DNA of 64,000 nt. It comes from Agathobaculum sp. Marseille-P7918 (lineage in GTDB: Bacteria > Bacillota > Clostridia > Oscillospirales > Butyricicoccaceae). The notes under the pieces are model-generated. The model had not been told where the DNA came from and ran no database searches. It saw only the letters and a program-made list of their open reading frames with translations. Positions 9,310-63,687 of this stretch are shown piece after piece. The stretch is taken from contig NZ_UYYD01000001.1 in the NCBI RefSeq assembly GCF_900625105.1, forward strand, positions 558,001 through 622,000, in the 5' to 3' direction. The position numbers were made by a program, and so were the translations under genes. Numbering within the stretch: position 1 is the stretch's first letter; each line of letters begins with the position of its first letter.

Positions 9310-9900
9310 TTATAAATGGGCTCGCCACTGACAATCTGTGATTTCCAGATTACTGAACACCGCTTTAAACGAGGAGTCTTCCGGGCTGCACGCATAAATT
9401 CCAAAAGTGATCTCACCGTCCCCGTTCCACAGGTGACAAATGCGCATCTGCTGGAAATGCACGCCGTCCTCGCTGCATTCCACGCAATAATCGCTCTCCC
9501 GGCGGCTGAGCCGGTACCACATCTCCCGTACACCGGCCGAAATATCCGTAGTGGCCCAGTCGGAATACCCATGATTGGTCACTACGCTGCCCAGCCGCTG
9601 AATTCGCTCATTTTCATATTCGATGGATGCTTTCAGCCAGTTCTCACTATCCAGATAAACCGCCACGCCGCACTGGTCGAAGCGATGCTTGCTCTCAAAC
9701 CGGGTTCGAACGGTAAAGGAAAAATACTTCTCGTCCGTCCGGGTCTGGAGCACCGGAGCGTTGTCATTTTGAAAACCATAGTAAGTGCGCTGCCACAGAT
9801 CGGTGTGGGGTTCCGTCACAATTTCCACCGTATCCGGCGTGATCACCGCATTTTGTGGTTTTCTTGTCCAAAGCAGTTCTTGAGATAAAAACTGTGCCAT
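9310..9900 (-). CDS. DUF1349 domain-containing protein
   Basis: A 196-residue cytoplasmic protein of the DUF1349 beta-sandwich family, which has a concanavalin-like fold. Typical segments are HTDLWQRTYYGF, RTRFESKHRFDQCGVAVYLD, WLKASIEYEN and VTNHGYSDWATTD. Members are often linked to carbohydrate utilisation, but no reaction is established. The start at 9900 follows a GGAAGG site; an upstream in-phase codon has none. It is a single-gene unit. Confidence 0.85.
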   Translation of the reverse strand: MAQFLSQELLWTRKPQNAVITPDTVEIVTEPHTDLWQRTYYGFQNDNAPVLQTRTDEKYFSFTVRTRFESKHRFDQCGVAVYLDSENWLKASIEYENERIQRLGSVVTNHGYSDWATTDISAGVREMWYRLSRRESDYCVECSEDGVHFQQMRICHLWNGDGEITFGIYACSPEDSSFKAVFSNLEITDCQWRAHL

Positions 9901-10196
9901 AGAAATATCCTTCCTTTCGTACTGATGCATCACGTTTTTCTCTATCATACCATATATCTCAGCATATTACCATCGAGCCCCCTTTCCATTTCTGCTTTTT
10001 CCAGACATGCATGCAGCTGGTATCGCCCTGCTTGCGAATTCTTTTTGGGAATACGCCCTGATCGGCGTGTTATGCAGTTAATACCACGCCTGCTTTGGAA
10101 ACGCGCAAACCCATCCACGATGGAAAAACCTTAAACCCACCGGAACACTACCAGAAGCGGAAACTTTCCAGCAAAGCCTTTGGTCGAAAAACAACC

Positions 10197-10225
10197 TTGA
10201 CTACACATTTAACCGCAGTTACAAT
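10197..10225 (+). promoter_or_regulatory. Candidate sigma-A promoter in the 9901-10404 gap
   Basis: TTGACT (10197-10202), a 17-bp spacer and TACAAT (10220-10225) give a good match to consensus. It would make a leader of about 170 bases before the acetyltransferase. Nothing else is recognisable in this 500-base gap. Confidence 0.55.
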
Positions 10226-10404
10226 ATTTTCATATCCGGGTGCCGCGCACATGATCGAGTTCACGAGACCAGATGTTCACATTGCCCTGCTCGAATCAAA
10301 ATTTCGCAAAATTGTTTGGTTTTGCTGATTTCCCCCTATTGTCGCACCAAACTTTCCAAATGCGTTCTTTTCCTTTTGTTGCAATTTTGTGGAGGTACTG
10401 AAGC

Positions 10405-10986
10405 ATGATCATTAAAACGGAAAGACTGATCCTGCGTCCGTTTCTGGAGACAGACGCGGCGGATGTCTATGAATATCTGAAAGAGCCTGCGGTCAACTGC
10501 TTTGCCTGCATGAAGCTGAACTCTCTGGATGAGGCCAGGAAAGAAATGAAAAAGCGTCTTGACGAGACGGAGTACTATTTTGCCATTGCTCTGAAAGACG
10601 GCGGCAAGGTGATCGGTGAAATTAGCGCCTACCTGGAAGCAGGCGAGCCGCACGCGGATGAAGCGCCTGTGCGTGACACATTCAGCCCCTGCTGGATGCT
10701 GAACGAAAACTACCAAGGCAAAGGGTACGCCTTTGAGGCGGCCCATGCGTTCTTTGCTTATCTCTTTTCCCAGAAGGGTGCAAGGCGCATTTACGCCTAT
10801 ACCGAGGACTATAATCTTGCCAGTCAGCACCTGTGTGAAAAGCTGGGCATGCGCCGGGAGGGCGTTTTTCTCGAATTCATCTCCTTCGTGACAAACCCCG
10901 ACGGCACACCCAGGTATGAAAACACCGTACAGTATGCCATCCTGAAAAAAGAGTGGGACCAAAAACAGCTTGGTCAGATGCGCTGA
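10405..10986 (+). CDS. GNAT family N-acetyltransferase (RimJ/RimL type)
   Basis: A 193-residue acetyltransferase. It opens with the RimJ/RimL signature MIIKTERLILRPFLETDAAD and carries the acetyl-CoA loop YQGKGYAFEAAHAF near residue 110, then RIYAYTEDYNLASQHLCEKLGMRREG, typical of enzymes that modify protein N-termini or small amines. GGAGG precedes the start. The gene is followed after 15 bases by a DUF3795 gene, probably in one transcript. The acceptor is unknown. Confidence 0.9.
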   Translation: MIIKTERLILRPFLETDAADVYEYLKEPAVNCFACMKLNSLDEARKEMKKRLDETEYYFAIALKDGGKVIGEISAYLEAGEPHADEAPVRDTFSPCWMLNENYQGKGYAFEAAHAFFAYLFSQKGARRIYAYTEDYNLASQHLCEKLGMRREGVFLEFISFVTNPDGTPRYENTVQYAILKKEWDQKQLGQMR

Positions 10987-16624: not shown

Positions 16625-17008
16625 TTACGGCTCCGTCTCATAAGGCCAAGTGTTGATGCCGCCAAATTCGTAGATATTGGTGTAGCCGAGTTCGGCCAGT
16701 GTGGAGGATGCGGTCTTGCTGCGGTTCCCGCTGCGGCAATAAACCAAAACCGTAGAGTCCTTCTCTGGGATTACCTCTGCAGCGGTCGTTTCATCAATAG
16801 TGCCCGCCGGCAGCAGCACAGCATCAGGAATATGGCCGCTGTCGTATTCCTCCTGCTCCCGCACGTCCAAGACGATGACCTCCTGCGTGTCCATCATTTC
16901 TTTGGCCGTTTCCTGCGTGATTTGGTGGTAGGACTCGTCTGAAGCATTCCCGCCGCACCCAGTCAGCAGCAAAAGAAAGGAAATCAAAAGCGGTAAAATC
17001 CGTTTCAT
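16625..17008 (-). CDS. Rhodanese-like lipoprotein
   Basis: A 127-residue lipoprotein: signal peptide with lipobox LLTGC (Cys at about residue 18), then one rhodanese domain with VLDVREQEEYDSGHIPDA and the active-site loop CRSGNRS. The catalytic Cys is present, so sulfur transfer or thiol chemistry at the outer membrane face is likely. GGAGG lies upstream of the start. It is a single gene convergent with the XRE gene. Confidence 0.9.
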   Translation of the reverse strand: MKRILPLLISFLLLLTGCGGNASDESYHQITQETAKEMMDTQEVIVLDVREQEEYDSGHIPDAVLLPAGTIDETTAAEVIPEKDSTVLVYCRSGNRSKTASSTLAELGYTNIYEFGGINTWPYETEP

Positions 17009-17233
17009 CTAAGTACCTCCAAAAGACAGCTACAAAGTTCTTGTATATTCCTTTGCCGTGTAATGTATACCGTAATAAGCGAGGGAAATGTTTCAGTCGT
17101 TCAGCGGTCTGCTCCAGACTTCGGCCCTGTAACAGTTCTGCTGATCTCCAAAATGACAACTAAAAGATCAGTGTCGTCTGAAAAAGCAGGAGCTCCTGCA
17201 ATACTTTCTCTTTTGCAGCTTGGGCAATATCCC

Positions 17234-18313
17234 TCACGCGTCAATTCCCCAAACCTTTTTCAAGCGTTCTACCGTATATACCCATTTTTGATCTCTGGGG
17301 CGGCAAACAGAATTCTGGTTTCCGAAGAAGCCAATCTCCTTGACTGCCTGACTCTCCAAAACCGTTTTGATCCAATCCACTTGTACAACGTATTCCGCCT
17401 TCACAGGATCATCACTAGAGTGCAGATAGTCCCCTTGCGTTTCGAGCGACGAAAATCCGACCTGCTGCCCATCCACGGAAAACAGGACATCTTTTGCCTG
17501 TTGGACTTCCTTTCTAACGATACCCACACCGACATAGCCGGTATGCGGAATATTCACCCAGACTCGATCTCCAGGACTAAGCAGCTTCAATGTGTTGGTG
17601 TACCAAGTGCCGCCTCCTGCGGAAATGAACCCATACTTTTTGGCATCAACCCAAGAGCGTCCACCGCTTCCAAATGATACATAGTATTCCTGATTCCACT
17701 GTCGAATCGATTTGGGGTCCGGCCGCTGTTCTTCTACATTTTCCTCAAACCAAGCCCGACTGATCAGGCGCTTGGATCCACACGAAACCACTCTGAAAAA
17801 CACAATATTAATATCAACTTCATACTTATCCCGCAGATAACGAATGATCCGTTCGGTGCTGTCATCCATTTTTGCGGCAACAATGACCATTTTGACATTA
17901 TTATTGATGCTGTCTTCTTCTAAAGCCGTACCATATTTATTCTCGTAGGCTTTATTCAGTGTCACCTGACCACCAGAAAACTGCAGATATTGTTCCGCTA
18001 ATTCCTCCAATGTCAAGTCTGCCATGCAAGAAGCATAATCGATCGCCTGCGCCGTAACCTCCCTTGGTGTCAAATCCTTTTTCAATTCTACGACGACCAA
18101 GTCTCCATCGTGATCCATACAGAGCAGATCAATATATTTCCCCGCAACTGTGCGCACCTGCCGACCAATCAGCAACCAATCCGGATCCAAAATTTCTATA
18201 TGCTCTGCGAGCAAATCTTCCAACTCTTTTTCATTGATTAACTCTGCTGGCCGCAGCTCAACCCTATCATCCAAAGACCATATTGCTTGAGAAATTGCCA
18301 ATGTAACCACCAT
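17234..18313 (-). CDS. NucS/DUF91-like PD-(D/E)XK nuclease with C-terminal reader-like domain
   Basis: A 359-residue protein. The N-terminal half matches the NucS/DUF91 endonuclease group: LLAEHIEILDPDWLLIGRQV, then active-site residues D62, E76 and K78 in the PD-(D/E)XK arrangement (IDLL...VVVELKK), then AQAIDYASC. The C-terminal half (about 195-330) contains KYGFISAGGGTWYTNTLKLL and VWVNIPHTGYVGVG, which resemble PUA/EVE-like folds; that comparison is inference. It is the last cistron of the minus-strand defence-like run and starts 17 bases after the second helicase remnant. It probably cuts DNA; mismatched or modified DNA are possible targets. Confidence 0.82.
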   Translation of the reverse strand: MVVTLAISQAIWSLDDRVELRPAELINEKELEDLLAEHIEILDPDWLLIGRQVRTVAGKYIDLLCMDHDGDLVVVELKKDLTPREVTAQAIDYASCMADLTLEELAEQYLQFSGGQVTLNKAYENKYGTALEEDSINNNVKMVIVAAKMDDSTERIIRYLRDKYEVDINIVFFRVVSCGSKRLISRAWFEENVEEQRPDPKSIRQWNQEYYVSFGSGGRSWVDAKKYGFISAGGGTWYTNTLKLLSPGDRVWVNIPHTGYVGVGIVRKEVQQAKDVLFSVDGQQVGFSSLETQGDYLHSSDDPVKAEYVVQVDWIKTVLESQAVKEIGFFGNQNSVCRPRDQKWVYTVERLKKVWGIDA

Positions 18314-18330
18314 CCAATCATAATACTCAT

Positions 18331-18712
18331 CTATTTCAGACGCTGGGAATACCGCTCCAGCTTCTCATCGCAGATCCGCTCCATCTCCTGTTCTCCTCCA
18401 GCGCCGTCAGCGCCTGTTTTTGGGGCTCCTTTAGCCCCAGTTTGCAGCCGTCCAATGACTTGCCCCTATGAGTGGGAAAATAGTCCTTGAAACCAGCTTG
18501 AGGTTTTGGAATACCTCGTCGTCCATCTCAATGGCCACCTTCCGCTCACCGTTTTCAATTAGAAAATTGGCAAACCGGCTGTTCTAATAGATGTCAGAGA
18601 AAGGATACTGGAAGTAGAGATAGCCGGCCTTCTCGGCACCGAAGGTGTTGGAAAACAGTTTGATAAACAGATCCTCGACACTGCTGCCGGAGACAAAGCG
18701 ATAGGTTGGCAT
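18331..18712 (-). pseudogene. Remnant of a superfamily II helicase N-terminus
   Basis: Reading on the minus strand from an ATG at 18712 gives MPTYRFVSGSSVEDLFIKLF and YLYFQYPFSDIY, then an in-frame TAG, then NSRFANFLIENGERKVAIEM, then (after a deletion and frame change) HRGKSLDGCKLGLKEPQKQALTALEE, and a terminal coiled segment ending at TAG 18331. I recall this order from the N-terminal region of large DEAD/DEAH helicases just before the Walker A motif; no helicase motif remains. It begins 5 bases after the MazG-like gene's stop, so it was the next cistron of the operon. Confidence 0.65.
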
Positions 18713-18717
18713 AGAGA

Positions 18718-19380
18718 TCACCTGGGTTTTCTGCCAAAATATGTATCTGTGATCTTGCCAAGATCCGCCAATCTGGATTCAATTGCGCCCTTACTTCTGC
18801 CATGTTCTTTTGCTATCGCCGATATTTTCATCCCTGAATCAAATTCATCCAACAATTTTTCTTCCTCAATTTCAGTCCATGGTTTTCCTGCATTGCAAGG
18901 TAAACTTTTCTTTTTTGTAGGTGGAAGTGCATTCATTACCTCGTGAAATGCTCTTATCATTTCAGGTTGATTACATACATGGTTTCGCGGCAAAATTTCC
19001 CCTGTGAATGGATCAACGCCATCCGCCAAAGCAGATAATAACTCTTTTGCTCTCTCAATATCCATCCAGTAATCCTCCTTTACTTCCTTTAGCAAGATTT
19101 TTCTTTCAAATCCGCCCCGCTTAGCGGCCTTTTCTGCCCGAACCCGCTCCAATTCTTCCATCGTCCAACCCCGGGCTTTCACAACAGCCTGCATGACCTC
19201 CAAAAGGTCGGCCAATTCTTCCATGGATTTACTCTCCTGGTATTCTGCCAGCTCTTCGCTCATCTTTTGATCCAGGAGAACTATGCAGTCCTCATCAGCA
19301 AGTGTTTCATAGACACAGATTTTCCCATCTGCTTTGATAATTCCCGGAATTCGGTCACGAACCAATTTGTAATACTTCAT
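18718..19380 (-). CDS. MazG-like nucleotide pyrophosphohydrolase fused to a helix-turn-helix domain
   Basis: A 220-residue two-part protein. Residues 1-100 match all-alpha NTP pyrophosphohydrolases (KLVRDRIPGII start; metal-binding E43, E46, E55 and D58 in EELAEY and EELADLLEVMQ). Residues 105-150 form a linker with GVDPFTGEILP. Residues 165-215 look like a Myb/SANT or resolvase-type helix-turn-helix (PWTEIEEEKLLDEF...ISAIAKEHGRSKGAIESRL). The enzyme part would hydrolyse NTPs or dNTPs to monophosphates; the tail suggests DNA binding or a sensor. It starts 3 bases after the PLD-ATPase gene ends, so translation is probably coupled. Confidence 0.82.
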   Translation of the reverse strand: MKYYKLVRDRIPGIIKADGKICVYETLADEDCIVLLDQKMSEELAEYQESKSMEELADLLEVMQAVVKARGWTMEELERVRAEKAAKRGGFERKILLKEVKEDYWMDIERAKELLSALADGVDPFTGEILPRNHVCNQPEMIRAFHEVMNALPPTKKKSLPCNAGKPWTEIEEEKLLDEFDSGMKISAIAKEHGRSKGAIESRLADLGKITDTYFGRKPR

Positions 19381-19383
19381 GCC

Positions 19384-21381
19384 TTACCTCTTCTGAAAAC
19401 GATCCAACCAAGATTTTTTGAACGGGATGCCAAAAAACGCCCGTGCTTCCTCCAAATTCATTACAACCCACTCTCTGGATTTGTGCGCCTCCAGCGTCTC
19501 GGGAAGTTCTTTTAAAATACGGTCCGCTTCCCAAATGGCTCCTGCGTTATACCGAATCTCATTACTTCGCTCAGAAATTTCGAAGGATGCCCGGCTGGTG
19601 TTCCATGCACTGCGAATGGTTTTGATAGCATAACTACCGGTCACTTTTTCGCTGAAATAATCTTCCAGCGTCAGCAGGCGTATGTATGCCGGAAGAGGTG
19701 CATCCGAAAACGCCTGAAAAATTTCGGTCAGCACCTGCGAGGATGTTGCCAGAATATCCGGCGCACTTTCTGATTCGTCACTTTTCATCTCTTCCAGTAA
19801 ATCAGGCACCAGTTCCAGCATTCGCCGCAAATACTCCCGATACAAAGCGGTCCCTACCTCACGCTGCACTATACGCACCACACTGCTGCGCATAACTTCC
19901 GTGTTGGTCAGGCCAGCCTGTACCCGACAAATAACGGTGCGGCGAATCACCTCAGGTGCCACCGCTTTCACATCCTCATTTGCACTAATAACCACTGCAG
20001 GATAATGCAAAAGCCGGTCTGCTACACCGAAATCGTCATTTTTGATTGTTTCAATGGCATGTTGATTGAAACGAGCGTTGGTCAAATCATCAACAATGAT
20101 CGGTGCACCCTTTACCGTGCGTTTGAGCCCTTCAATACTGGAACGAGTGAAATCAGGCGCTGCAATCTTGGTCTTTTGCCCAATCATCATTTTCAAAAGT
20201 GTTTCTAAAAAACTGGTTTTACCCGCCTTACTCTGCCCATATACCAGACCAAATACCGGATAGGGCAATAAGTTCTGATTATAATGCACTGCCATATCAC
20301 GCATACACGCCATAAACGGAGAGCAAAAGAACCAATTGGCAAATTCATAGTACCGCCGCTGCATCCCGGTCACATCGCCATGGAATTTCTCATATCCATC
20401 CATATATTTCAGAAACAAAGCAACGTCTTTCTCAATTTCTGTTTTCGGAGAATATAAGTCCAAATTGGTTCCATTGAGCCGCACCAACATCTCATCCGGA
20501 AAGATTTCAAGCTGTGGATATTCGCTTTGTAGTTCTTTCTCCTGTTTCTGTGTAGCCACTACCTGACGGCGGATGGATTTTATTTTTTCCGGCGAAAGCA
20601 TCAGTTTTCCTTTCTTGTCCGGTTTTGGCACAGAGGGTGCAAATTTCCCTGCCAAATTCTTTACATCCAAAGCAAACCGAACTTCAGCTTTTGCTTCTTC
20701 CGTTGGCTGCAAAACAAGTGCCTTTTTCACTTTGACGGTCCGTGCAATCGGCAATTCTTCCAAATGTTCCCCGTCGTTGGCGCACAGCAGTGTTTCCTTT
20801 GCAATCTGATCCGTACAATCTTCCCGCAGCCGGCAATAACAATCCCTGTACCAGTCATAAGCGGCGTCGCCGTCCACATAGCAGATATTCTCCCGCTGGT
20901 ATCCGCTGAAAGCAGCGCGGGACATATTTGCCGAACCCATAATTACCCGCTTGCGCCCGTCTTTATCCGACAGAAGATAAATCTTCTCGTGGGATAACGC
21001 GTTGCGCGCTACATAAAAATGCAGTGTACCATTTTCGATGCGAGAAACCAAATCCAATTTCCGCTTGCTGGCAGTATCTCGTATCCGCTCCACCATCTTG
21101 CACTGGTAAGCCATCACCTCTTGCAAAGAATAGGAAATCACCTCGTCACAGCCAAACAAAATTTCCACCTGTTCAAAGAGATCGATCAGCTGATAAGCAA
21201 AATCAATGCCGGAAGAATATGTAATCGCATGCAAAGTATCAAACCCGGAAAACAGCGCCTGCCACGAAAGCGTTTCTGCCCCAACATATTCCATCTTGAC
21301 AACATCAAGAGATGTCAACGCTGGAATATCAATCTGTTCCTGCACTTGTTCCGGAATATCAAATAGCGACAAATTTTCCAC
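19384..21381 (-). CDS. PLD-type nuclease fused to a P-loop ATPase
   Basis: A 665-residue protein of uncommon build. Residues about 40-200 form one phospholipase-D-type domain with H131-x-K133 and the GSANMS segment at 149-154, the half-site used by dimeric PLD nucleases. Residues about 320-560 hold a P-loop ATPase: Walker A GQSKAGKTS (382-390), Walker B PIIVDD (427-432), an asparagine after a hydrophobic strand (VVISAN, 463-468) like sensor 1, and arginines 480-481. A basic linker joins them; the tail (560-665) is helical. An ATP-driven nuclease effector is the natural reading. It lies between the Nudix and MazG-like genes with gaps of 21 and 3 bases. No named system is assigned. Confidence 0.8.
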   Translation of the reverse strand: MENLSLFDIPEQVQEQIDIPALTSLDVVKMEYVGAETLSWQALFSGFDTLHAITYSSGIDFAYQLIDLFEQVEILFGCDEVISYSLQEVMAYQCKMVERIRDTASKRKLDLVSRIENGTLHFYVARNALSHEKIYLLSDKDGRKRVIMGSANMSRAAFSGYQRENICYVDGDAAYDWYRDCYCRLREDCTDQIAKETLLCANDGEHLEELPIARTVKVKKALVLQPTEEAKAEVRFALDVKNLAGKFAPSVPKPDKKGKLMLSPEKIKSIRRQVVATQKQEKELQSEYPQLEIFPDEMLVRLNGTNLDLYSPKTEIEKDVALFLKYMDGYEKFHGDVTGMQRRYYEFANWFFCSPFMACMRDMAVHYNQNLLPYPVFGLVYGQSKAGKTSFLETLLKMMIGQKTKIAAPDFTRSSIEGLKRTVKGAPIIVDDLTNARFNQHAIETIKNDDFGVADRLLHYPAVVISANEDVKAVAPEVIRRTVICRVQAGLTNTEVMRSSVVRIVQREVGTALYREYLRRMLELVPDLLEEMKSDESESAPDILATSSQVLTEIFQAFSDAPLPAYIRLLTLEDYFSEKVTGSYAIKTIRSAWNTSRASFEISERSNEIRYNAGAIWEADRILKELPETLEAHKSREWVVMNLEEARAFFGIPFKKSWLDRFQKR

Positions 21382-21402
21382 CGTTATCCCCCTATCTGAT
21401 TG

Positions 21403-21792
21403 TCAATGAAGTCTGCTCTTTTTCAGCCGCTCTAATATCTCCACATCCGCCGGACAAAACGAATACTGATCAATCTCGTCTACCGTAATCCAGCGAATGT
21501 CATTGTGCTCCAGCTTTTGGGGAACACCTTCCCGGATAGTTGCATGAAACAGCGTTAGATGCACCGTTAAATCTGAGTATTCATGCATTACATCCATGAA
21601 TATTTGGCCTACATCCACCGTGACGGCCAGCTCTTCCTGACATTCCCGAATGAGTGCCTGTTCCTTTGTTTCTCCGGGTTCCACCTTGCCACCGACAAAC
21701 TCCCACAGCAGTCCTCTGGCCTTATGGGCTGGACGCTGACAAATCATAAACTTGTCCTGATTCCAGATCAGGGCTGCAACTACCTCTGTCAT
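21403..21792 (-). CDS. Nudix hydrolase (MutT-like)
   Basis: A 129-residue enzyme with a full Nudix box (GGKVEPGETKEQALIRECQEEL, about 34-55) including the REx2EE metal site, and MutT-like segments ALIWNQDKFMICQRP and WEFVGGK. Expected activity is (deoxy)nucleoside triphosphate pyrophosphohydrolysis. Its ATG directly follows the TAA of the helicase pseudogene with no gap, so it was translationally coupled to it. In this setting it may act with the nucleases rather than in general sanitation; that is inference. Confidence 0.9.
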   Translation of the reverse strand: MTEVVAALIWNQDKFMICQRPAHKARGLLWEFVGGKVEPGETKEQALIRECQEELAVTVDVGQIFMDVMHEYSDLTVHLTLFHATIREGVPQKLEHNDIRWITVDEIDQYSFCPADVEILERLKKSRLH

Positions 21793-24753
21793 TTATCCCA
21801 CCACCAATTTATTTGTCTTCCTCAAAAACTTCGCTGGGATCAGACGATCCAACTTCCAGATAATATTCATCGGTTTGCTGCCCTCATGCTTCATATAGTT
21901 GGCAGTACCTAAGAAGGTATAGGCTGCTGCGCCTCCGGTAATCTGATCAGTCTTGAACTCCCGGACGAACAGCAGCACTCTGCTCCCGATGGTGAATGTA
22001 CCGTTGTCCGGTTGGCGAATCCGCCGCTGTGGTGCTCTGGCTTTGCCAGTGAAACAGGCTCTCATTGATGGAGTGGTCGTTATACATGGTGGTAGGCGAG
22101 TAGTCCTTATCGGCCTTATTCAGCGTCACAAAGAACACATCCAGTTGCTTCTCTCGCAGCCACTTGACGCCCTCGCGCACCGTGGCCGGTTTCAGAAAGT
22201 CCAGCGCTACCAGCAGTTAATCACGGGTATAGGTACAATGGAGGTCCAGTGGGCAGTCAAAGCCCAGGTCCACCGGCTCGTCTATGAAGTCGATCTGCTC
22301 ATACCGATAGCGAAACAGCTCCAAAAGTTCACCCAGCAGCACGGGACTGTCCGAGAGAGCATATAACTTATCCTGCACTTCATCGGATGCCCAGCTCTCT
22401 GCCGTCTTGCCCCAAACCGTCACATAGAACATCTGGAGCATCCGCTGTTCCACTTGATGCAGTGCTGCGAAGTTCACATCATCCAAACGAGACAGCAGAT
22501 TGAGCAAAAAGCGTATCCAGTGACGGGAATCTACAACGGCAAATCGTCCGAGTGCTTTCGTAAGTACCTCCTCCAGCGGCTCGCAAAAGTCCGCAATCAC
22601 ATCCGCCCGGGCACAAATGCGGGAGAAGGAAGAAAACTTGTAAATTGCCCTGGGGTCCAGGTGATAATAGTCTAGGAAATTTGCCAGTGTCAGCTCCAGT
22701 CCGCTGTCCTCGGTAAAGCTGGCCACGCGAGACACCAGTCCAGCGGTATTGCCATAGAAGGCGCGAACGTTATCCAAAATGTACTTGGCAGCTTTCTTTT
22801 CCAGCTGTATGTAGCAGCCCTTTGGTGCAGAGACAAATCCGTCCTTGATTTCCCTGGTCACGCTGCGAGTGGTGTTAGACAGCAGAGCTGCAAACTTATC
22901 CTCAAAGTTATACCTCTTGTTGCTCTGACCGATAAAATCCAGCACGGTCAGGCATTCTTTATCCTCCGCAAGGCGCAGACCACGGCCCAGCTACTGAAGG
23001 AAAATCGTCAAGGACTCCGCGGGCCGCAGGAACAGTACCGTATTGACCTCTGGGATGTCCACGCCCTCGTTATAGATGTCCACCACGAAGATGAAGCGCA
23101 CCTCACCACTGACCAGCCGTCCTTTGGCGGTTTTTCTCTCCTCATCGGTGGATTTTCCCGTCAGGAAGATGGACGAAATCCCGTGGTCGTTAAAATAGCG
23201 GCACATAAACTTTGCATGCTCAATGGACACGCAGAAGCCCAGCCCCTTGACCTCATCAGTATCAGTCACATACTTCAAAACCGAGGACACCACCAAATCG
23301 GCGCAGCGATCAGCGACCGCTCCCTGAACAAATATAGATTTTCAAGCTCTTTTGTGTCATACCCTCCCCGGCTCCACTTGAGCGTATTGAGGTCTACGGT
23401 ATCCGTGACGCCGAAATATTGGAACGGACACAAAAGCTTACGATCGATGGCCTCCGGCAGACGAATTTCCGCAGCGATGCGGTTGTTGAAATAAGTCAGA
23501 ACGCTCTTACCGTCCATGCCCTCCGGCCGGTAGCTGCCTACAAACAGCTCTCCGAAGTTGGCATCCTTTAAAACTGCCCGAAAAGTGTACAGACTCTGTT
23601 GCAGAATTTCTTGCCGATGCGCTACAAAGAGCAGCCAACAGAGTTTCCCAGCGTGTTGCTTGCAAAAACGCTTATAGTCCAGAGCAGAGATCACCGTTTT
23701 CCCGGTGCCGGCGGCGGCCACTACCAGGTTGCGGGTATAGCCTTGGACGGTGTGCTCCGCCTCCAGCTTGTCCAGAATCTCCTGCTGATAGGAGTAGGGC
23801 TCAATATCTATGGTATAAATTTCGGCGTTGTTGGCGTCGAAGTATTTTTCCGCCTTCAACGCGCGGGCTAGCCGCTCCCTCTGATCCTCGGATTAGTACT
23901 CAAACTCTCTGGAATTCCAGTAGCTCTCGAAAGTGGCGGCTATCTTGTCGATGGTCTCAGGCAAATCCCGGCGAGTGACTTTCACATTCCATTCCAGACC
24001 GCTGGAGATGGCGGCGTTGGATAGGTTAGAAGAGCCCACATAGGCGATAGTGAAACCGGTATCTCGGTAAAAGACATAGGTCTTGGCGTGGAGGCGAGTA
24101 CGGTTGGTGTCATAGCTGACCTTGATTTTGGTGTTAGGCAGCTTGCGCAGTTCCTCAATAGCCTTTACATCGGTGGCTCCCATATAGGAGGTGGTGATGA
24201 TCCGCAGCTCTCCGCCGTTCTGGGTAAACTCCCGCAGCTCATCTATTAGGAGCCGCAGGCCGCTCCACTTGATAAAGGATACCAACATATCGATGCTGTC
24301 GGCGGAGACGATCTCCTTTTTGAGCTCGGTATACATCTGAGGCTCATGGACGGCCCCGGTGAACAGGCTGCTCTGGGCAATGGAGGTCTCTGGACGGCTC
24401 AGGTCAGCAGCCGTTTTGCCCACCGCCAGCCGTGGGTCTTGCTCCCGTAAAAGCGCAAGAAGCTGCTCTGCCCGCTGGTCAATGCTCAGCGCGGCAAAGT
24501 CAGCCTCTTTGGTTATGTTCTGAATGAGGGCAACGATCTGGTTTGCAAGGCTAACCTGCGCAGAGATATCCCCACCGTTGTCCAGCACATTCTCCAGGCC
24601 CTTTTGCACCACATTCGCCAGATACTGTGCCAACACCTTGGAGGCCTCCGCCTTATCAATGGGCGCAACCGATTTGCGGGCCTCTGGGATTTCCGAAAGC
24701 TCGCAATTCAGGGCAGTATTGATGACTTGCTCGTATAGGCCGGGAAATAACAT
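21793..24753 (-). pseudogene. PLD-SF2 helicase-DUF3427 protein, decayed
   Basis: About 987 codons that once encoded one large protein. Section 1 (24753-23893): PLD-like nuclease with RLHAKTYVF and VGSSNLSNAAI. After an in-frame TAA: SF2 helicase with Walker A-type AAAGTGKT, but GSYRPE runs straight into MDGKSVLTYF, so the segment with the DEAH box is deleted. A frameshift follows near 23290, then the motif V region EGVDIPE, an in-frame TAG at 22991-22993 in FLQ-stop-LGRGLRL (CAG expected), a DUF3427-like part, a TAA near 22217, and a frameshift near 21985. Three stops, two shifts and the loss of motif II make function impossible. Confidence 0.88.
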
Positions 24754-25142
24754 GTATTTTTCACGCTTCTAATGTTTTATTCGTAGATATATACCATATT
24801 TAGTATAGCTGGAATTCCACAATCCGACAAGGACTTATTGGAAAATATCAACAAAGCGATCCTAACTTGTTAATATTTTTACTGTAGATTTGTACCGAAT
24901 AAGCAACCATCAAAAGCATAGCAATGAATTATAAACAAATTACACATGCGACAAATGTCAACTATGCAAGCGGCATCCGTCGCGTTATAATCATAATAAA
25001 CTCAGGTTTTCGTATTTTTTTGTCATCGTATCACCGCCCAGGGGGCAGTCTGCCTTCTGAGCCGTTAAAAATGAAGTTGCTACCAAGAATTGACGCGATA
25101 CCGCAGGTATACGCGCAAAATTCACAGAAAATCAAGAGCTCC
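24754..25142. other. AT-rich intergenic stretch upstream of the defence-like operon
   Basis: No gene is supported on either strand. This is where the promoter of the minus-strand operon starting at 24753 must lie, but no consensus pair stands out. Composition is clearly more AT-rich than the flanking core genes. Confidence 0.5.
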
Positions 25143-25872: not shown

Positions 25873-25884
25873 TCCCATAAAACA

Positions 25885-25918
25885 GCAAAGCGATACGGAG
25901 TGTCCCGTACCGCTTTGC
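25885..25918. terminator. Bidirectional terminator
   Basis: A 14-bp stem with one mismatch (GCAAAGCGATACGG pairing with 25905-25918) and a short loop lies between the excisionase remnant and the converging XRE gene. Confidence 0.65.
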
Positions 25919-25920
25919 AA

Positions 25921-26127
25921 TCACATTGGATCTCGACGGTCACTAATTCCCAGAATGTAATCCGTCGTAGTTTTATAAAACCCGGCCAGTTTGATCAAAA
26001 CCTGTGTCGGAATATCGTTTTCTCCGGTCTCATATTTGGAATATCCGGTTTGTGACATTCCTAAAAATTTAGCAACCTGTGTCTGATTCAGGTCGGCATC
26101 CTCCCGCAAGTCTCGCAATCTGTTCAT
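25921..26127 (-). CDS. XRE-family repressor, small
   Basis: A 68-residue single-domain helix-turn-helix protein (LNQTQVAKFLGMSQTGYSKYE, residues 14-34) with a C-terminal helix containing TTDYILGISD, typical of phage-like Cro/C1 repressors in Bacillota. The ATG at 26127 follows GAGGTG at correct spacing. It is divergent from a 55-residue gene, and the gap holds two identical-type operators, so autoregulation is likely. Confidence 0.9.
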   Translation of the reverse strand: MNRLRDLREDADLNQTQVAKFLGMSQTGYSKYETGENDIPTQVLIKLAGFYKTTTDYILGISDRRDPM

Positions 26128-26155
26128 GGTGTTCACCTCAAGGTGAGTATGCCAT

Positions 26156-26195
26156 AACCTAAAACAGGTTATTTACTTTTAACCTATTTCAGGTT
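26156..26195. promoter_or_regulatory. Tandem operators for the XRE repressor
   Basis: Two 15-bp dyads, AACCT-N5-AGGTT, lie at 26156-26170 and 26181-26195, with centres 25 bp apart. A weaker CACCT-N2-AGGTG copy at 26134-26145 covers the repressor's own ribosome site. Confidence 0.75.
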
Positions 26196-26217
26196 AATAT
26201 AAGTTTGAGGTGATTTT

Positions 26218-26385
26218 ATGCCGGATTACAAGGAAATGTATCTCACTCTATTCCGCGCGACCGAGCAGGCGATCAACACACTGATCGAAGCGCAGCGCGC
26301 ATGTGAGGAATTGTATATCAGCGAGCCGGAGACCGAGTTGCGGGTTGTTCCGCTGCCCGATCGCACAAAGGAGGAAAAGGAATGA
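26218..26385 (+). CDS. Small helical protein divergent from the XRE gene
   Basis: Fifty-five codons starting at an ATG preceded by GAGGTGA. The product (MPDYKEMYLTLFRATEQAIN and an acidic helical remainder ending KEEKE) has the compact amphipathic form of small accessory proteins often found beside XRE repressors in Bacillota; its function is not known. Its promoter region carries the AACCT-N5-AGGTT operators. Confidence 0.7.
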   Translation: MPDYKEMYLTLFRATEQAINTLIEAQRACEELYISEPETELRVVPLPDRTKEEKE

Positions 26386-58345: not shown

Positions 58346-60820
58346 TTAAACCTTCGAAATGTCTGACTGCAAAAGACCATCATATCTCTCTGCAACTCCC
58401 AGTAACTGCCCAATCAGTTGAGTATGCTGCATCCCCCAATACTCTGCATCGCACACAAGAATCAAACGCCGTTTTGCGCGACTGACAGCGGTATTGATGA
58501 CACATTTTCCATTGCTCTCCAACCGGTCGGAATCAGTAAACCATTTATCCAGAGTATCTACAACGCTGAATAATACTGTATCCCATTCTCTTCCCTGCGA
58601 GCCATGTACCGTTAAAACCTTATCTTCCCAACCTGACGAACGCGGTAACAAATTCCGTATCGCATCCCGCTGATTTTTGTATGGCGTAATCACCCCGATC
58701 TGTTCATTGGGATGCGATTGGATGTAAGAAGCGATTGCACGGCATTCCGCCGGACTGGTACGCTTTTTCACTTTTTCCTGCGAAGCTGCAGCGTGCAAAA
58801 CGAAAATATCCGTCTTATGCGCAGGGTTGCCATAAAACGAACTGGAATATACCGTTTTGGCCAGAACCTTAGCCAGCGCTTCCCCAAAACGGTAAGTATG
58901 TGTCAAATCAAAACGCTTCAATTGTTCAAACCGCGCAGGCAGATGCATTAAATATGTATTCGCAATCTGTAAAATTGATTGTGTGAAAATTTCCTCTGCA
59001 AACAACGCAGATTGTGCCCACAAGCAAACATTTGGCTCCCCGCCTTCCTGCATATCTGCATCAGGCATTTCACAAACCGGCGGTAGCTGCATATGGTCTC
59101 CCAAAAATGTCACCGGACAAGCGTAAGCAAGCAGTGCAGCACCTTTGATTAGCGAGCAGTACCCTGCCTCGTCCAAAAAGATATGGGCAGGAGCCAATTC
59201 TCCATTCGGCGGCATCCGATATAGACAAGTATCCACAGTTCCCGCCAGCACCAAGCATTCGCGCCAGCGTATGCCATTACCCTGCTCTTCCAAATTTTCT
59301 TTTTGTTGTAGGCAACTGGTTTTTTGCTGCTCTAAGTCTTTTTTGCTCTCCAACAGCGCGGTTTCAGACCACTCACTGCACTCTTCATATTGCGGCCGTT
59401 TGTCCTCCAAAATATTGCGTGCTCGTTCAAGTTGGGTACAAAAAGCCGCCAAATCTGCTGCAAACCATGTTTCCCGCAACTTCTTGGCGGACTGCAGCAA
59501 TGGTTTCCAATACGATGCCCACATCTGCAGTTCTGTTTTGCTATGCGCAATCTCGTTCAGAACCTGCTTCTGTTGCTGCCGGGCATCGGCTTCTTTCTGG
59601 ATATACTCCTTGCGTTCTGCAATCAACTGATGGCTCTGCGCACGCACTTCATCCAACTCGTGCATTTCTGTTTGAAGCGACTGCATCAATTTTTCCCTAC
59701 GCCCAGCGAATAGCCATTTTCGCCAACCGTTGTTGTATAATCGTACCTGTCTTGTGAAATCTACCACATTTGCTGTATGCTTTTTCTCTTTTGTCTGGCA
59801 GGTCTCCAGTTCTGCAAGTGCCAAATATCCTCTTCCCTGCCATTCGATACATTCCTGTTCTAATCTATCGAGTTCCGATATTTGCTGCTGCATTCGTTTC
59901 TGCCAATCCGGCAATGCACGTTCTAGAAAGTCCTGTGCCTTTTCAAAGGATAAAAAATTGCGATATGCTTCTAATTTGTCCAGTTGTTCTTGATTTGCAG
60001 CAATTTCAGCTTCTATCTGCAATAACTGCGCCTGTACTTCCCCATGCAATTTCGCTTTATCCGTTTGTTCGCACACTTCACTGTATTGACTTTTAAACGC
60101 CCGAGAAGGCACTCCTAAGCGAAGCACCTTTCGCAATGAAATTCCAGCTTCCTGTAAAATCGGCAAGACACCATACAACATCTGCTCAACTGCATTATTG
60201 GTCGGTGCCGTAATCCAAATTCGCTTTTGAGCCTGAACATACGCCAGAATACACCGTGCTAAAACAAACTGTGTTTTCCCCGTACCCGGCGCACCCCAAA
60301 TGTAGGAAAATGGCTGCGATAACGCTGCTGCAACAGCATTTTTCTGTTCCTCGGAAGCCTGAGATGACAAAGCTGCATCCTTCGGCATCGGAACCGAACA
60401 GGATTGTGTAGGCAGCGCAATTCGCAGTCCATAACTGCGATACCAGTCTTCCACCCGTTTCACCAAAAACCGCAAATCCGAGATTACAGTTATCTTATGT
60501 ATCGGAGTATCTGCCAACACTTGCCGCAACTCATCCAATGGACGCACGATTAACTCATTGGTTTGCTCACAATATTCTGTTGGCTTGATTTGCTCTTGTG
60601 TGTATATCTTATTCTCGATCCGCACCTGCACCGTATCCGCATATGAAAGCAAAGATCGCAAAGTTAGCACAAAATGCGATCCTTCTTGTCTTATTTTCAA
60701 AACTCGATACTCAATCAATCCGCGCTGATGTTCCGTCAGGTATTGATAATAACTTTTAGAGCCTTGTATCGCAGCTTGCGCATAAGATTTCAAGTATTCC
60801 TGCACACAAAATTCCTCCAC
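58346..60820 (-). CDS. Upf1-like superfamily 1 helicase
   Basis: An 824-residue SF1B helicase. N-terminal 150 residues are helicase-associated; Walker A GAPGTGKT at 176-183; motif Ia-type TAPTNNAVEQ at 205-214; a long coiled coil (about 255-515) inserted between the motifs; Walker B DEAG at 550-553; motif III GDHMQLPPV at 574-582; motif V VHGSQGREWDTV near 740; and motif VI VNTAVSRAKRRL near 775. Such helicases unwind RNA or DNA and are frequent in defence loci. Composition is more AT-rich than the core genes. It stands alone between the S-layer peptidase and the XRE/SLOG pair; no nuclease partner adjoins it. Confidence 0.88.
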   Translation of the reverse strand: MEEFCVQEYLKSYAQAAIQGSKSYYQYLTEHQRGLIEYRVLKIRQEGSHFVLTLRSLLSYADTVQVRIENKIYTQEQIKPTEYCEQTNELIVRPLDELRQVLADTPIHKITVISDLRFLVKRVEDWYRSYGLRIALPTQSCSVPMPKDAALSSQASEEQKNAVAAALSQPFSYIWGAPGTGKTQFVLARCILAYVQAQKRIWITAPTNNAVEQMLYGVLPILQEAGISLRKVLRLGVPSRAFKSQYSEVCEQTDKAKLHGEVQAQLLQIEAEIAANQEQLDKLEAYRNFLSFEKAQDFLERALPDWQKRMQQQISELDRLEQECIEWQGRGYLALAELETCQTKEKKHTANVVDFTRQVRLYNNGWRKWLFAGRREKLMQSLQTEMHELDEVRAQSHQLIAERKEYIQKEADARQQQKQVLNEIAHSKTELQMWASYWKPLLQSAKKLRETWFAADLAAFCTQLERARNILEDKRPQYEECSEWSETALLESKKDLEQQKTSCLQQKENLEEQGNGIRWRECLVLAGTVDTCLYRMPPNGELAPAHIFLDEAGYCSLIKGAALLAYACPVTFLGDHMQLPPVCEMPDADMQEGGEPNVCLWAQSALFAEEIFTQSILQIANTYLMHLPARFEQLKRFDLTHTYRFGEALAKVLAKTVYSSSFYGNPAHKTDIFVLHAAASQEKVKKRTSPAECRAIASYIQSHPNEQIGVITPYKNQRDAIRNLLPRSSGWEDKVLTVHGSQGREWDTVLFSVVDTLDKWFTDSDRLESNGKCVINTAVSRAKRRLILVCDAEYWGMQHTQLIGQLLGVAERYDGLLQSDISKV

Positions 60821-61381: not shown

Positions 61382-61855
61382 ATGAATAGATTACACGCCT
61401 GCTGCTTCACCGGTCATCGCGACATCCCACCAGAAATCCTACCAACACTCGCCGCAAAATTGGAAGCTATAGTTCTTGAACTGATTGCAGATGGCATTCG
61501 ATACTTTTACGCTGGCGGAGCACTGGGTTTCGACACACTGGCCGCCGAGACCGTACTGCAACTGCGTGACCAATTTCCGCAAATCCGGCTTATTTTGGCG
61601 ATTCCCTGCCGCGAGCAAACCCGCGGATGGTCTACTACGTCAATCAACCGATATGGACACATCTTGCACCGCGCGAACGAAGTGATTTACACCTCCGAAC
61701 ATTACACCCGCGGCTGCATGCAGCGCCGCAACCGATTTATGGTTGACCACAGTGCTGTTTGCGTGGCATACTGCACCCGCTCGACCGGCGGCAGCGCATA
61801 TACGCCGCAATACGCCCGCAAATTCGGTCTGCGCATCCTGCTGCTCAACATGTAA
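61382..61855 (+). CDS. SLOG-family (DUF1273/YpsA-like) nucleotide-binding protein
   Basis: A 157-residue Rossmann-like protein: CCFTGHRD at 7-14 and GGALGFDTLAAE at 45-56, the SLOG superfamily pattern for a nucleotide or nucleotide-derived ligand, then MQRRNRFMVDHSAVCVAY. The family includes the YpsA protein and stress- or defence-related sensors. GGGAGA precedes the start. It is divergent from the XRE gene across the palindromic operators, so that repressor likely controlled it. Confidence 0.87.
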   Translation: MNRLHACCFTGHRDIPPEILPTLAAKLEAIVLELIADGIRYFYAGGALGFDTLAAETVLQLRDQFPQIRLILAIPCREQTRGWSTTSINRYGHILHRANEVIYTSEHYTRGCMQRRNRFMVDHSAVCVAYCTRSTGGSAYTPQYARKFGLRILLLNM

Positions 61856-61898: not shown

Positions 61899-63068
61899 CT
61901 ATTTCACTTGTTTTCGCTTTTTCCGCCCACCGCCCTGCCGCAGACTCTGCGCGACCGCCTCGATCGTCTGCTCGTGCGTCGTATCCAGCAGATGCGTGTA
62001 GATCATGGACGTTGTCGCGACCGTACTGTGCCCCAGTGAGCGGCTGATGTTGTAGATCGTCGCGCCGGAGTAGTTTGCAAGCGTCGCAAAGGTATGCCGT
62101 AATCCATGCAAGGTCAGCTTGGGCAGATGGTTCCGGCGGATGAACGTGCTGAACGTCTCGGTCAGATAATTCGGCCGATACGGCTCGCCGTTTGGCCAAG
62201 TCAGCACATAGCCCGTATCCTGATACTCCTTGCCAAACAGCAGCCGGTTCTCGCGCTGCCGCCGCCGTTCAGCCTGCAGTACGCGCACGACTTTCTCCGG
62301 CATGTGCAGCAGCCGGGTCGAGGAACGGTTTTTGGTGTCCTTTTCGATCACTTGCGAACCGGCCATGGTGCGGGCGCGGTGCACACACAAGGTTTTGCCC
62401 TGAAAATCCACATCCTTCCACCGCAGGCCGCACATTTCCTCGCGGCGCAGGCCGAGATACCCGGCCAGATACACGACCGGCTCGAGCTTATCGCCCTCAA
62501 CCGCATCCAGCAAGCGACGCAGCGAGGCGACGTCGTAAAACTGCGGTTCGGGCCGCTTGAATTTTGGCGGCTCGACGCGGTCGGTCGGGTTGCGGGCGAG
62601 CACGTCCTGCATGACCGCGATGCGAAGCGCATTGCGCAGCAGATCGTAGTGCTTGCGTGCGGTGTTGGGCGACAGGCCGCAGTCATGGCACAGGTAGGCG
62701 TAATACTGCTGGATGCGCTGCGGCGACAGCGATTGCAGTGGGATCGCGCCCAGCTGCGGGATGATGTGGTTGACGATCATCTGGCTGTACCCATGCACGG
62801 TGGTCGCGGCACGGTTGGGCCGCACAACCGCGTCCATCCAGTAATTCAGCCACTCGGCAACGGTCGTGTCGTTCGGCTTGGTCAGCGCGCCGAAGTCGCG
62901 CTGCACCTCGTGCAGCCGCAGCGCCTTGCGGGCGTCTGTCAGCCGCGCGAATGTGCGGGTCTTTTTGATCTGGTGTCCGTGCGCGTCGCGCCCGAAATCC
63001 AGATTGACATAGTATTTCTTTTTCTCCTCATCGTACGAAATATTGCGCTCGACGCGCGTACGGGACAT
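61899..63068 (-). CDS. Tyrosine site-specific integrase
   Basis: A 389-residue phage/ICE-type integrase: an N-terminal arm-binding domain (about 1-65), SAM-like core-binding domain (66-165) and catalytic domain (175-375) with R208 (GLRREEMCGL), K243/K246 region, H321-x-x-R324 (LHGLRHTFATL), H347 and nucleophile Y357 (MIYTHLL). All catalytic residues are present. It is transcribed away from ssrA, its start 265 bases from the tmRNA 3' end, the usual arrangement for elements inserted in ssrA. Confidence 0.92.
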   Translation of the reverse strand: MSRTRVERNISYDEEKKKYYVNLDFGRDAHGHQIKKTRTFARLTDARKALRLHEVQRDFGALTKPNDTTVAEWLNYWMDAVVRPNRAATTVHGYSQMIVNHIIPQLGAIPLQSLSPQRIQQYYAYLCHDCGLSPNTARKHYDLLRNALRIAVMQDVLARNPTDRVEPPKFKRPEPQFYDVASLRRLLDAVEGDKLEPVVYLAGYLGLRREEMCGLRWKDVDFQGKTLCVHRARTMAGSQVIEKDTKNRSSTRLLHMPEKVVRVLQAERRRQRENRLLFGKEYQDTGYVLTWPNGEPYRPNYLTETFSTFIRRNHLPKLTLHGLRHTFATLANYSGATIYNISRSLGHSTVATTSMIYTHLLDTTHEQTIEAVAQSLRQGGGRKKRKQVK

Positions 63069-63291
63069 ATTGTTTCACCGTGCTTCCCTTATCAAATTGG
63101 GAGCCCGGTGCGGCGGTGCACAGCCGCGCCGGAAAGACGGATACCGGTATCGTCAGGCGCCGGGTTTGTGGCTCTTTCGCCCCGCTCCCCTTGCCTGTTT
63201 ATAGTGTAGCATAAGTTCAAAAAGTAAATCTACCGGAATATCTACCGAAATTTCAAAACAGCGTTTTCTGTTGCAAAAACCGGTTAAAAAC

Positions 63292-63325
63292 AAAAGATAC
63301 CGCCCGGTATCAGGCGGTATCTTTT
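63292..63325 (-). terminator. Intrinsic terminator of ssrA
   Basis: A 13-bp perfect stem (AAAAGATACCGCC and complement) with an 8-base loop, 7 bases past the tmRNA 3' end, followed by T-rich sequence on the minus strand. Confidence 0.85.
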
Positions 63326-63332
63326 GGTATTT

Positions 63333-63687
63333 TGGTGGAGCCGAGGGGAGTTGAACCCCTGTCCGAAAGCACATTCACCGTGACTTCTCCGGGCGCAGTT
63401 TGTCTTTTTGCATTCCCTCCATGACACGCCGGCAAACAGGCTGGTCACTTCAGTAGAGTCATGTTACATGACGGGGGCAACTCTTACCCCGTACACGTTC
63501 ACCACTAATCGACGCCGGGTCTCAAAGCCGTGGTCCTCTCTGAGCCGACGGGCTAAGCCTTAATTAGGCAGCCTGAAGAGTATAATCGTTGTTGTTTAAT
63601 TTATAAACAGTTGGAGCTTTTTACGCAGATCCCCGCTGCGGCCCGCTATCCCGGCTTCAACACCCCCGTCGAACCCGTTACGGCCCC
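63333..63687 (-). ncRNA. ssrA: Transfer-messenger RNA
   Basis: A 355-base tmRNA with encoded CCA. The 5' end GGGGCCG (from 63687) pairs over 7 bp with CGGCTCC at the 3' end; the T arm reads GGTTCAACTCCCC. The tag frame (63596-63564) encodes NNNDYTLQAA followed by TAA; the resume codon upstream is uncertain. With SmpB it rescues stalled ribosomes and marks the products for degradation. The gene is 30 bases downstream of smpB. Its 3' end lies next to an integrase gene yet is intact. Confidence 0.95.

Follow-up and report, generated by a model that had tools for sequence, protein, structure and literature searches.

Two linked cassettes and two guest genes form a decayed, probably anti-phage operon in Agathobaculum sp. 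Marseille-P7918

The closest described relatives of the locus addressed here, six adjacent minus-strand genes at 17234-24753 of a 64,000-nucleotide stretch of Agathobaculum sp. Marseille-P7918 (contig NZ_UYYD01000001.1, positions 558,001 to 622,000; hereafter the window), come from restriction of modified DNA, from candidate defence families and from an Argonaute-associated nuclease. SauUSI cleaves DNA containing 5-methylcytosine (m5C) or 5-hydroxymethylcytosine (hm5C) with ATP, the PLD domain being catalytic and DUF3427 the proposed reader (PMC3874153). In Streptococcus suis, the candidate family PDC-S07 was co-localised with type IV restriction-modification in 23 out of 23 occurrences, and the accessible text makes no mention of MazG, a second helicase or a PLD-ATPase there (PMC12813430). 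AgaP is a PLD protein of haloarchaeal APAP systems, in which it is paired with a long-A Argonaute (mLife 2024, PMC11442185). NpAgaP is a tested Argonaute-associated PLD nuclease, and the text of the source paper does not name a P-loop region (PMC11442185). Finally, the DefensePredictor survey lists MazG as a predicted defence domain that has not been validated; the likeness to our locus is by domain name, and the main text as available contains no helicase, Nudix or DUF3427 (PMC13092281).

The operon described here is a new combination of such known and candidate defence parts. The pairing of type IV restriction with a PDC-S07 Nudix is already published and hence not new, and the idea of wholly new defence families is not supported, as the window Nudix and NucS-like proteins are already PADLOC candidates (PDC-S07 and PDC-S11) and the first gene is built in a way known from type IV restriction enzymes. 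Literature searches gave no description of the combined operon, in agreement with the original prediction, which had not recognised the full set as a named system. We consider it rather probable that the locus, situated on a variable island, represents a composite operon for phage defence that has since decayed, consisting of two linked cassettes plus two guests and not of one fixed system.

Anatomy of the operon

In the order of transcription, the operon comprises the following genes:

21793..24753, minus strand: broken SauUSI-like type IV restriction gene with PLD, superfamily 2 (SF2) helicase and DUF3427 parts, the PLD-helicase (Pfam, PADLOC)
21403..21792, minus strand: intact Nudix hydrolase, MutT/NudG-like, PDC-S07 (NUDIX_4 2.8e-25, Nudix box)
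19384..21381, minus strand: intact PLD-ATPase of 665 amino acids (PLD motifs, P-loop, Walker B-like VDD)
18718..19380, minus strand: fusion of a MazG-like part (19075-19380; EExxE...ExxD) with a helix-turn-helix (HTH) part (18718-19068; weak HTH matches)
18331..18712, minus strand: remnant of a second helicase (helicase 2), an N-terminal piece and a C-terminal tail with the middle gone (tblastn, relative in L022)
17234..18313, minus strand: intact NucS-like nuclease with an additional C-terminal part, PDC-S11 (NucS_C 6.6e-9, PADLOC)

Coordinates, strand, order and the gaps of 0, 21, 3, 5 and 17 bases were confirmed as originally predicted. Direct reading of the sequence places the end of the PLD-helicase stop codon at 21793 and the ATG of the Nudix gene at 21792, while the helicase 2 remnant runs from an ATG at 18712 to the end of its stop codon at 18331. 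The domain assignments were likewise borne out by Pfam, which detected PLD, ResIII, Helicase_C and DUF3427 (in pieces), Nudix, RE_NgoFVII PLD and NucS_C, and both helicases are indeed dead, the PLD-helicase lying in five pieces and helicase 2 being a 382-base remnant. The claim that the operon is richer in AT than its flanks holds for 17-22 kb (GC 45.5-48.4%, neighbouring kilobases 53-57%), but only partly for 22-25 kb (49.3-52.9%).

Two linked cassettes

Cassette A comprises the PLD-helicase and the Nudix gene. The three-domain order of SauUSI, i.e. N-terminal PLD, central SF2 ATPase and C-terminal DUF3427, was recovered by Pfam in the relatives from an Agathobaculum and a Flavonifractor metagenome-assembled genome (loci L009 and L022, respectively) as well as in the window pieces. 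L009 holds an unbroken relative of 1060 amino acids, with which the window pieces align and which matches the PADLOC mREase_IV model at 1.1e-235; this model (PDLC03659) also matches each of the five window pieces. Comparison of the cassette A PLD-helicase with the solved SauUSI chain 7clg yielded 9.9e-90. The window copy itself does not form the open reading frame of a SauUSI-type enzyme, as it is interrupted by several stops and frame changes and has lost the DExH box together with a stretch of about 170 bases. Apart from being broken in the window, the cassette A enzyme differs from SauUSI in its length of about 1050 amino acids with an extra N-terminal stretch, and in having a Nudix gene next in the operon.

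The window Nudix protein has an intact Nudix box and matches PDC-S07 at 3.5e-46, so that both the family and the pairing resemble the situation in S. suis. It also resembles PRK10546, a pyrimidine deoxynucleoside triphosphate (dNTP) diphosphatase (5.2e-31, below cut-off), and MutT, again below cut-off. PRK10546 we take to be NudG, which hydrolyses 5-methyl-dCTP. Of the 22 assessable PLD-helicase copies outside the window, 13 are followed by a Nudix gene, or a trace of one, at a distance of at most 350 bases. This and the other adjacency counts are based on 60 stretches annotated by tblastn; for the PLD-helicase, L170 (a remnant) and L194 and L154 (cut) were excluded, and the distant copies L201, L202 and L221 were not counted.

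Cassette B comprises the MazG-like gene, a small gene and helicase 2. The designation MazG-like stands insofar as the EExxE...ExxD motif is present (E42, E43, E46 and E55 in 67/67 rows and D58 in 66/67 rows of an alignment that includes overlapping copies of the same loci), but no MazG family model matched. The structure model shows three long helices plus strands (mean predicted local distance difference test score, pLDDT, 81). The fusion with the HTH part, which itself gives weak HTH matches only, is real in the window but local, with two genes elsewhere: in L022, L165 and L166, the MazG-like and HTH genes are in the same frame, one stop codon apart, and the fusion thus reflects local loss of the stop codon. 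Helicase 2 was recognised through its 757-residue relative in L022, of which the remnant keeps the first piece and the last residues. Pfam assigns ResIII and Helicase_C to the L022 protein, in addition to a weak N-terminal match to the MTES_1575 nuclease (3.5e-4, under cut-off). Outside the window, 15 helicase 2 copies could be assessed, some of which are truncated; 13 of these have the MazG gene at most 500 bases upstream, the exceptions being G384 and G367 (G253, cut by a contig end, was excluded). Depending on the copy, the two genes are separated by the HTH gene or a DUF6998 gene, enclose something that escaped detection, or follow each other with nothing in between. Finally, 6 of these 15 helicase 2 copies have a PLD-helicase no more than 5 kb away, plus one remnant. 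These counts define two cassettes, which are often though not always found together. Genome G013 carries a second copy (L168 3426-17254) with helicase 2, MazG and PLD-helicase, in which the PLD-helicase is about 8 kb away from helicase 2 and does not adjoin MazG.

Co-occurrence was also assessed across 394 genomes of the order, using orthologue sets of 16 genomes for helicase 2 (at least 55% identity), 31 for MazG (31 of 47 kept, those with the HTH part only being left out), 24 for the PLD-helicase and 8 for the PLD-ATPase (7 full-length; the fragment in G306 was left out of the tests). Helicase 2 and MazG share 13 genomes where 1.3 are expected (Fisher 1e-13), helicase 2 and the PLD-helicase 9 versus 1.0 (2e-8), PLD-ATPase and MazG 4 versus 0.55 (9e-4), and PLD-ATPase and PLD-helicase 3 versus 0.43 (6e-3). 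With the own genome removed, the four recomputed pairs all stayed below 0.05, the weakest being PLD-ATPase with PLD-helicase at 0.043. The grouping exceeds chance expectation.

A set of 60 PLD-ATPase loci was obtained from a scan of public genomes, ranging from Clostridia to Kiritimatiellae, Verrucomicrobia, Lentisphaeraceae and Chitinispirillia; many contigs are short, 3 matches are partial, and families were assigned by tblastn. All six families occur together in L022 alone, where their order is that of the window and the frames are open, the PLD-helicase being divergent. The combination of PLD-helicase, PLD-ATPase, MazG and helicase 2 was present in 5/60 loci (L009, L021, L022, L031 and L048). 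MazG was found within 5 kb of the PLD-ATPase in 8/60 loci (L009, L010, L014, L021, L022, L031, L048 and L055, with L014 and L031 both being Gemmiger formicilis records), and directly downstream of it in all of these but L048, where helicase 2 lies directly upstream; L058, whose sole helicase is distant (30%) and encoded on the opposite strand, was left out of this count. A single fixed six-gene system, as originally envisaged, was rejected, since the PLD-ATPase and NucS-like genes come and go among relatives. The scatter of homologues without co-occurrence that would mark the grouping as chance was not observed for either cassette, but is largely what we see for these two genes. Beyond the operon relative, L009 also carries a Shedu (SduA) gene at 9842-10870.

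The PLD-ATPase and NucS-like guest genes

The window PLD-ATPase carries HEK at residue 131, GSAN at 149, a P-loop GQSKAGKT at 382 and a Walker B-like VDD at 430. Residues H131, K133, G149, S150 and N152 are invariant in 41/41 aligned PLD-ATPases, window included, and the best Foldseek matches of the PLD part are the NgoAVII R protein and SauUSI. Profile alignment of PLD-ATPases with NpAgaP covered 571 columns at a probability of 99.6%. By this computation, the protein is a distant full-length homologue of haloarchaeal NpAgaP, with the P-loop region in common. Both share HxK and GSxN motifs, a P-loop region and VDD, whereas the HxK-GSxN spacing is 16-18 residues in the measured PLD-ATPase relatives versus about 50 in NpAgaP, and the P-loop reads GKT in the PLD-ATPase versus GKG in the haloarchaeal proteins. 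The Natrinema pellirubrum sequence L263:4998-7151 carries the NpAgaP residues H105, K107, E112, G119, S120, D122, G157, S158 and N160. Of note, the annotation in the plasmid collection splits this agaP gene into hypothetical fragments, two of them on the opposite strand.

The PLD-ATPase loci also depart from APAP systems in that no neighbouring long-A Argonaute was detected: when the 758 called open reading frames of the 60 loci were compared with a profile built from four haloarchaeal Argonautes, none matched at E 1; a distant Argonaute could escape this profile. A separate Salinigranum locus (L229 8049-13446) encodes Piwi and a PLD-ATPase followed by genes with annotations of UvrD helicase, PD-(D/E)XK nuclease and ATP-dependent DNA helicase, possibly a larger system.

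The second guest, the NucS-like protein, matches PDC-S11 at 5.3e-129 over residues 6-357, i.e. near full length, and D and ExK are readable in its sequence. It is present in 6/394 genomes of the order; at 90% identity or more it occurs only in the own genome and as a fragment in G035. The window gene stands last in a composite operon, and relatives with less than 60% identity are found on 50 plasmid records.

A phage or plasmid origin was rejected, as PLD-ATPase relatives were absent from the viral_contigs and phages collections and were found at less than 60% identity on 12 plasmid records. Relatives of helicase 2 were likewise missing from viral_contigs, and from plasmids at 1e-100, but a phage from human faeces is on record with one distant match (29.5%); NucS-like relatives were missing from viral_contigs.

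Mosaic origin, decay and possible function

The operon is of mosaic origin. At the DNA level, L009 is the nearest of the compared relatives for 19082-24862 (85-86%), with 19267-21450 also 85% identical to G035, while G394 (L260, 89.6%) is the nearest for 17194-18399, followed by L022 (84.5%). In a quick tree of 43 PLD-ATPases, module context requires 7 changes, at least 5 of them on well-supported branches; with shuffled labels the mean was 9.2, and 24 out of 500 shuffles gave an equally low number, which means that the label is only weakly clustered. The operon is bordered by the following features:

25921..26136, minus strand: XRE-type regulator (HTH_3 5.2e-14), probably the leader gene of the element
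16625-17008, minus strand: rhodanese lipoprotein, downstream border (Rhodanese 5.5e-20)
about 17009-17190, minus strand: trace of a GDSL/SGNH hydrolase, downstream border (compared by eye)

In G035, a 92.6% identical copy of the XRE region (25883-26357) immediately precedes the PLD-ATPase, behind which scraps of the MazG and NucS-like genes are found. G394 possesses three rhodanese genes with 86-90% protein identity to that of the window, one next to none of the six genes (L259), one next to helicase 2, the NucS-like gene and a complete GDSL hydrolase (L260), and one next to a Nudix gene and one end of a PLD-helicase (L261). Three copies in three settings within one genome suggest a recombination-prone border.

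Such a border also lends itself to an explanation by hitch-hiking, in which unrelated one- or two-gene defences pile up beside the rhodanese/GDSL genes and share only a promoter. We assign this possibility a minor though appreciable chance. It accords with the G394 copies, two of which adjoin different operon pieces and one none of the six genes, and with the neighbours of the PLD-ATPase outside the module, where a scan of 62 adjacent genes revealed PDC-S41/Schlafen-type helicases (5), type I methyltransferases (3) and CARF-HEPN proteins (2) besides ordinary genes. The 'S' in PDC-S presumably denotes single-gene candidates. However, window gaps below 25 bases and cassette adjacency of 13/15 and 13/22 are tighter than an island alone needs.

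Further along the window, a tyrosine integrase (Pfam Phage_integrase) adjoins the tmRNA gene at 61899-63687, as in ssrA-inserted elements, and the same block occurs in G394 (L259), at a distance of 2.7 kb from one of the rhodanese genes. A search for repeats of the tmRNA end that could mark element borders gave none elsewhere in the window down to 12 bases. A YpsA-type SLOG protein (61382-61855) is encoded next to the integrase, and an 824-residue helicase (AAA_11/AAA_12; 58346-60820), possibly another defence gene, lies in a second AT-rich stretch (58-62 kb, GC 44-50%).

The damage to the operon is recent. Ratios of non-synonymous to synonymous substitution rates (dN/dS) against the nearest relative used were 0.061 for the PLD-ATPase (0.067 versus G035), 0.059 for Nudix, 0.125 for MazG and 0.052 for NucS; the value of 0.031 for the HTH part is unreliable due to a saturated dS of 2.3. 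Three pieces of the dead PLD-helicase gave 0.069, 0.061 and 0.060, which is inside the range of the intact genes (0.031-0.125). Synonymous and non-synonymous changes specific to the window numbered 80:13 in the dead PLD-helicase pieces, 64:14 in the PLD-ATPase, 17:3 in Nudix, 12:8 in MazG, 35:12 in HTH and 36:8 in NucS; MazG is, if anything, the loosest of the parts. As dead and intact genes are indistinguishable in dN/dS, the decay is too recent to tell them apart, and open frames are no proof of continued use.

This bears on the idea, raised in the original prediction, that Nudix, PLD-ATPase, MazG-HTH and NucS-like genes remain under selection as a reduced system acting without the helicases. 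We regard such a system as improbable. The four frames are open, their motifs intact and their dN/dS low (0.031-0.125), and the PLD-ATPase is often found without helicases, but the equally low values of the dead pieces indicate that the signal predates decay, so that residual selection had to be discarded as evidence, and 0/60 loci hold exactly these four genes by tblastn. That the locus is pseudogenised debris and serves defence in none of its relatives is hardly credible: two of the six genes are dead in the window, helicase 2 is also broken in L009 and further truncated pieces occur in G035, but relatives with open frames, the known type IV restriction architecture and the published co-localisation speak against it.

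Several observations weigh against the composite operon as well. An adjacent Nudix gene is absent in 9/22 PLD-helicase copies, and the 13 Nudix matches include one fragment and several with no more than 31-44% identity to the window Nudix, whose scores under curated cut-offs make specificity for modified dCTP a guess. MazG is absent within 5 kb in 52/60 PLD-ATPase loci. Its identity is that of one motif, no MazG being named by Pfam, PADLOC, NCBIfam or PHROGs scans, and Foldseek matched no PDB chain to the model. The Fisher tests ignore phylogeny, and their cut-offs were picked after the data had been seen. Regarding the PLD-ATPase, the ATPase part was modelled with very low confidence, which left only the PLD part for structure matching; a profile search of solved chains returned only an unrelated match at E 0.91, and single-domain scores with NpAgaP were significant for the P-loop part (1.6e-6) but not for the PLD part.

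Within the composite operon, we infer substrates, a sanitation role, gating and anti-phage function as follows. The cassette A enzyme would recognise modified cytosine via its DUF3427 end and cut with its PLD domain in an ATP-driven manner, as in SauUSI. The Nudix protein, given its likeness to MutT/NudG and the activity of NudG, may hydrolyse modified dCTP-type nucleotides, thereby keeping phage bases out of host DNA, in which they would be targets of cassette A. In cassette B, the SF2 helicase, which may carry a nuclease at its N-terminus, is grouped with a putative MazG-like pyrophosphohydrolase and a small protein of the HTH or DUF6998 type; this cassette would probably represent a second translocating nuclease with its own enzyme for nucleotide-pool clean-up. 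Of the guests, which are located between or behind the cassettes, the AgaP-like PLD-ATPase should act as a DNA nuclease and, given its expected toxicity, would have to be gated, perhaps through its own ATPase; the other is the candidate NucS-like nuclease. With both helicases dead in the window, the operon cannot work here as in its relatives.

A bolder proposal, which we put forward as speculative and rather doubtful, would couple restriction to sanitation throughout: two motor nucleases, each with a hydrolase (Nudix or MazG-like) destroying modified dNTPs, which would prevent phage bases from entering host DNA and directing the nucleases against it, accompanied by a self-gated, Argonaute-free family of AgaP-like DNA nucleases, present in both bacteria and archaea, whose ATPase would replace Argonaute as sensor or brake.

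A Nudix gene fixed to a restriction enzyme for modified cytosine would offer a directly testable reason for the presence of a nucleotide-modifying domain in defence. The link to NpAgaP gives a family of PLD-ATPases from gut bacteria a tested relative, and the comparison points in turn to a P-loop region in NpAgaP and to relatives in loci without detected Argonaute. We regard the AgaP link and the testable idea of restriction plus sanitation as the most useful outcomes.

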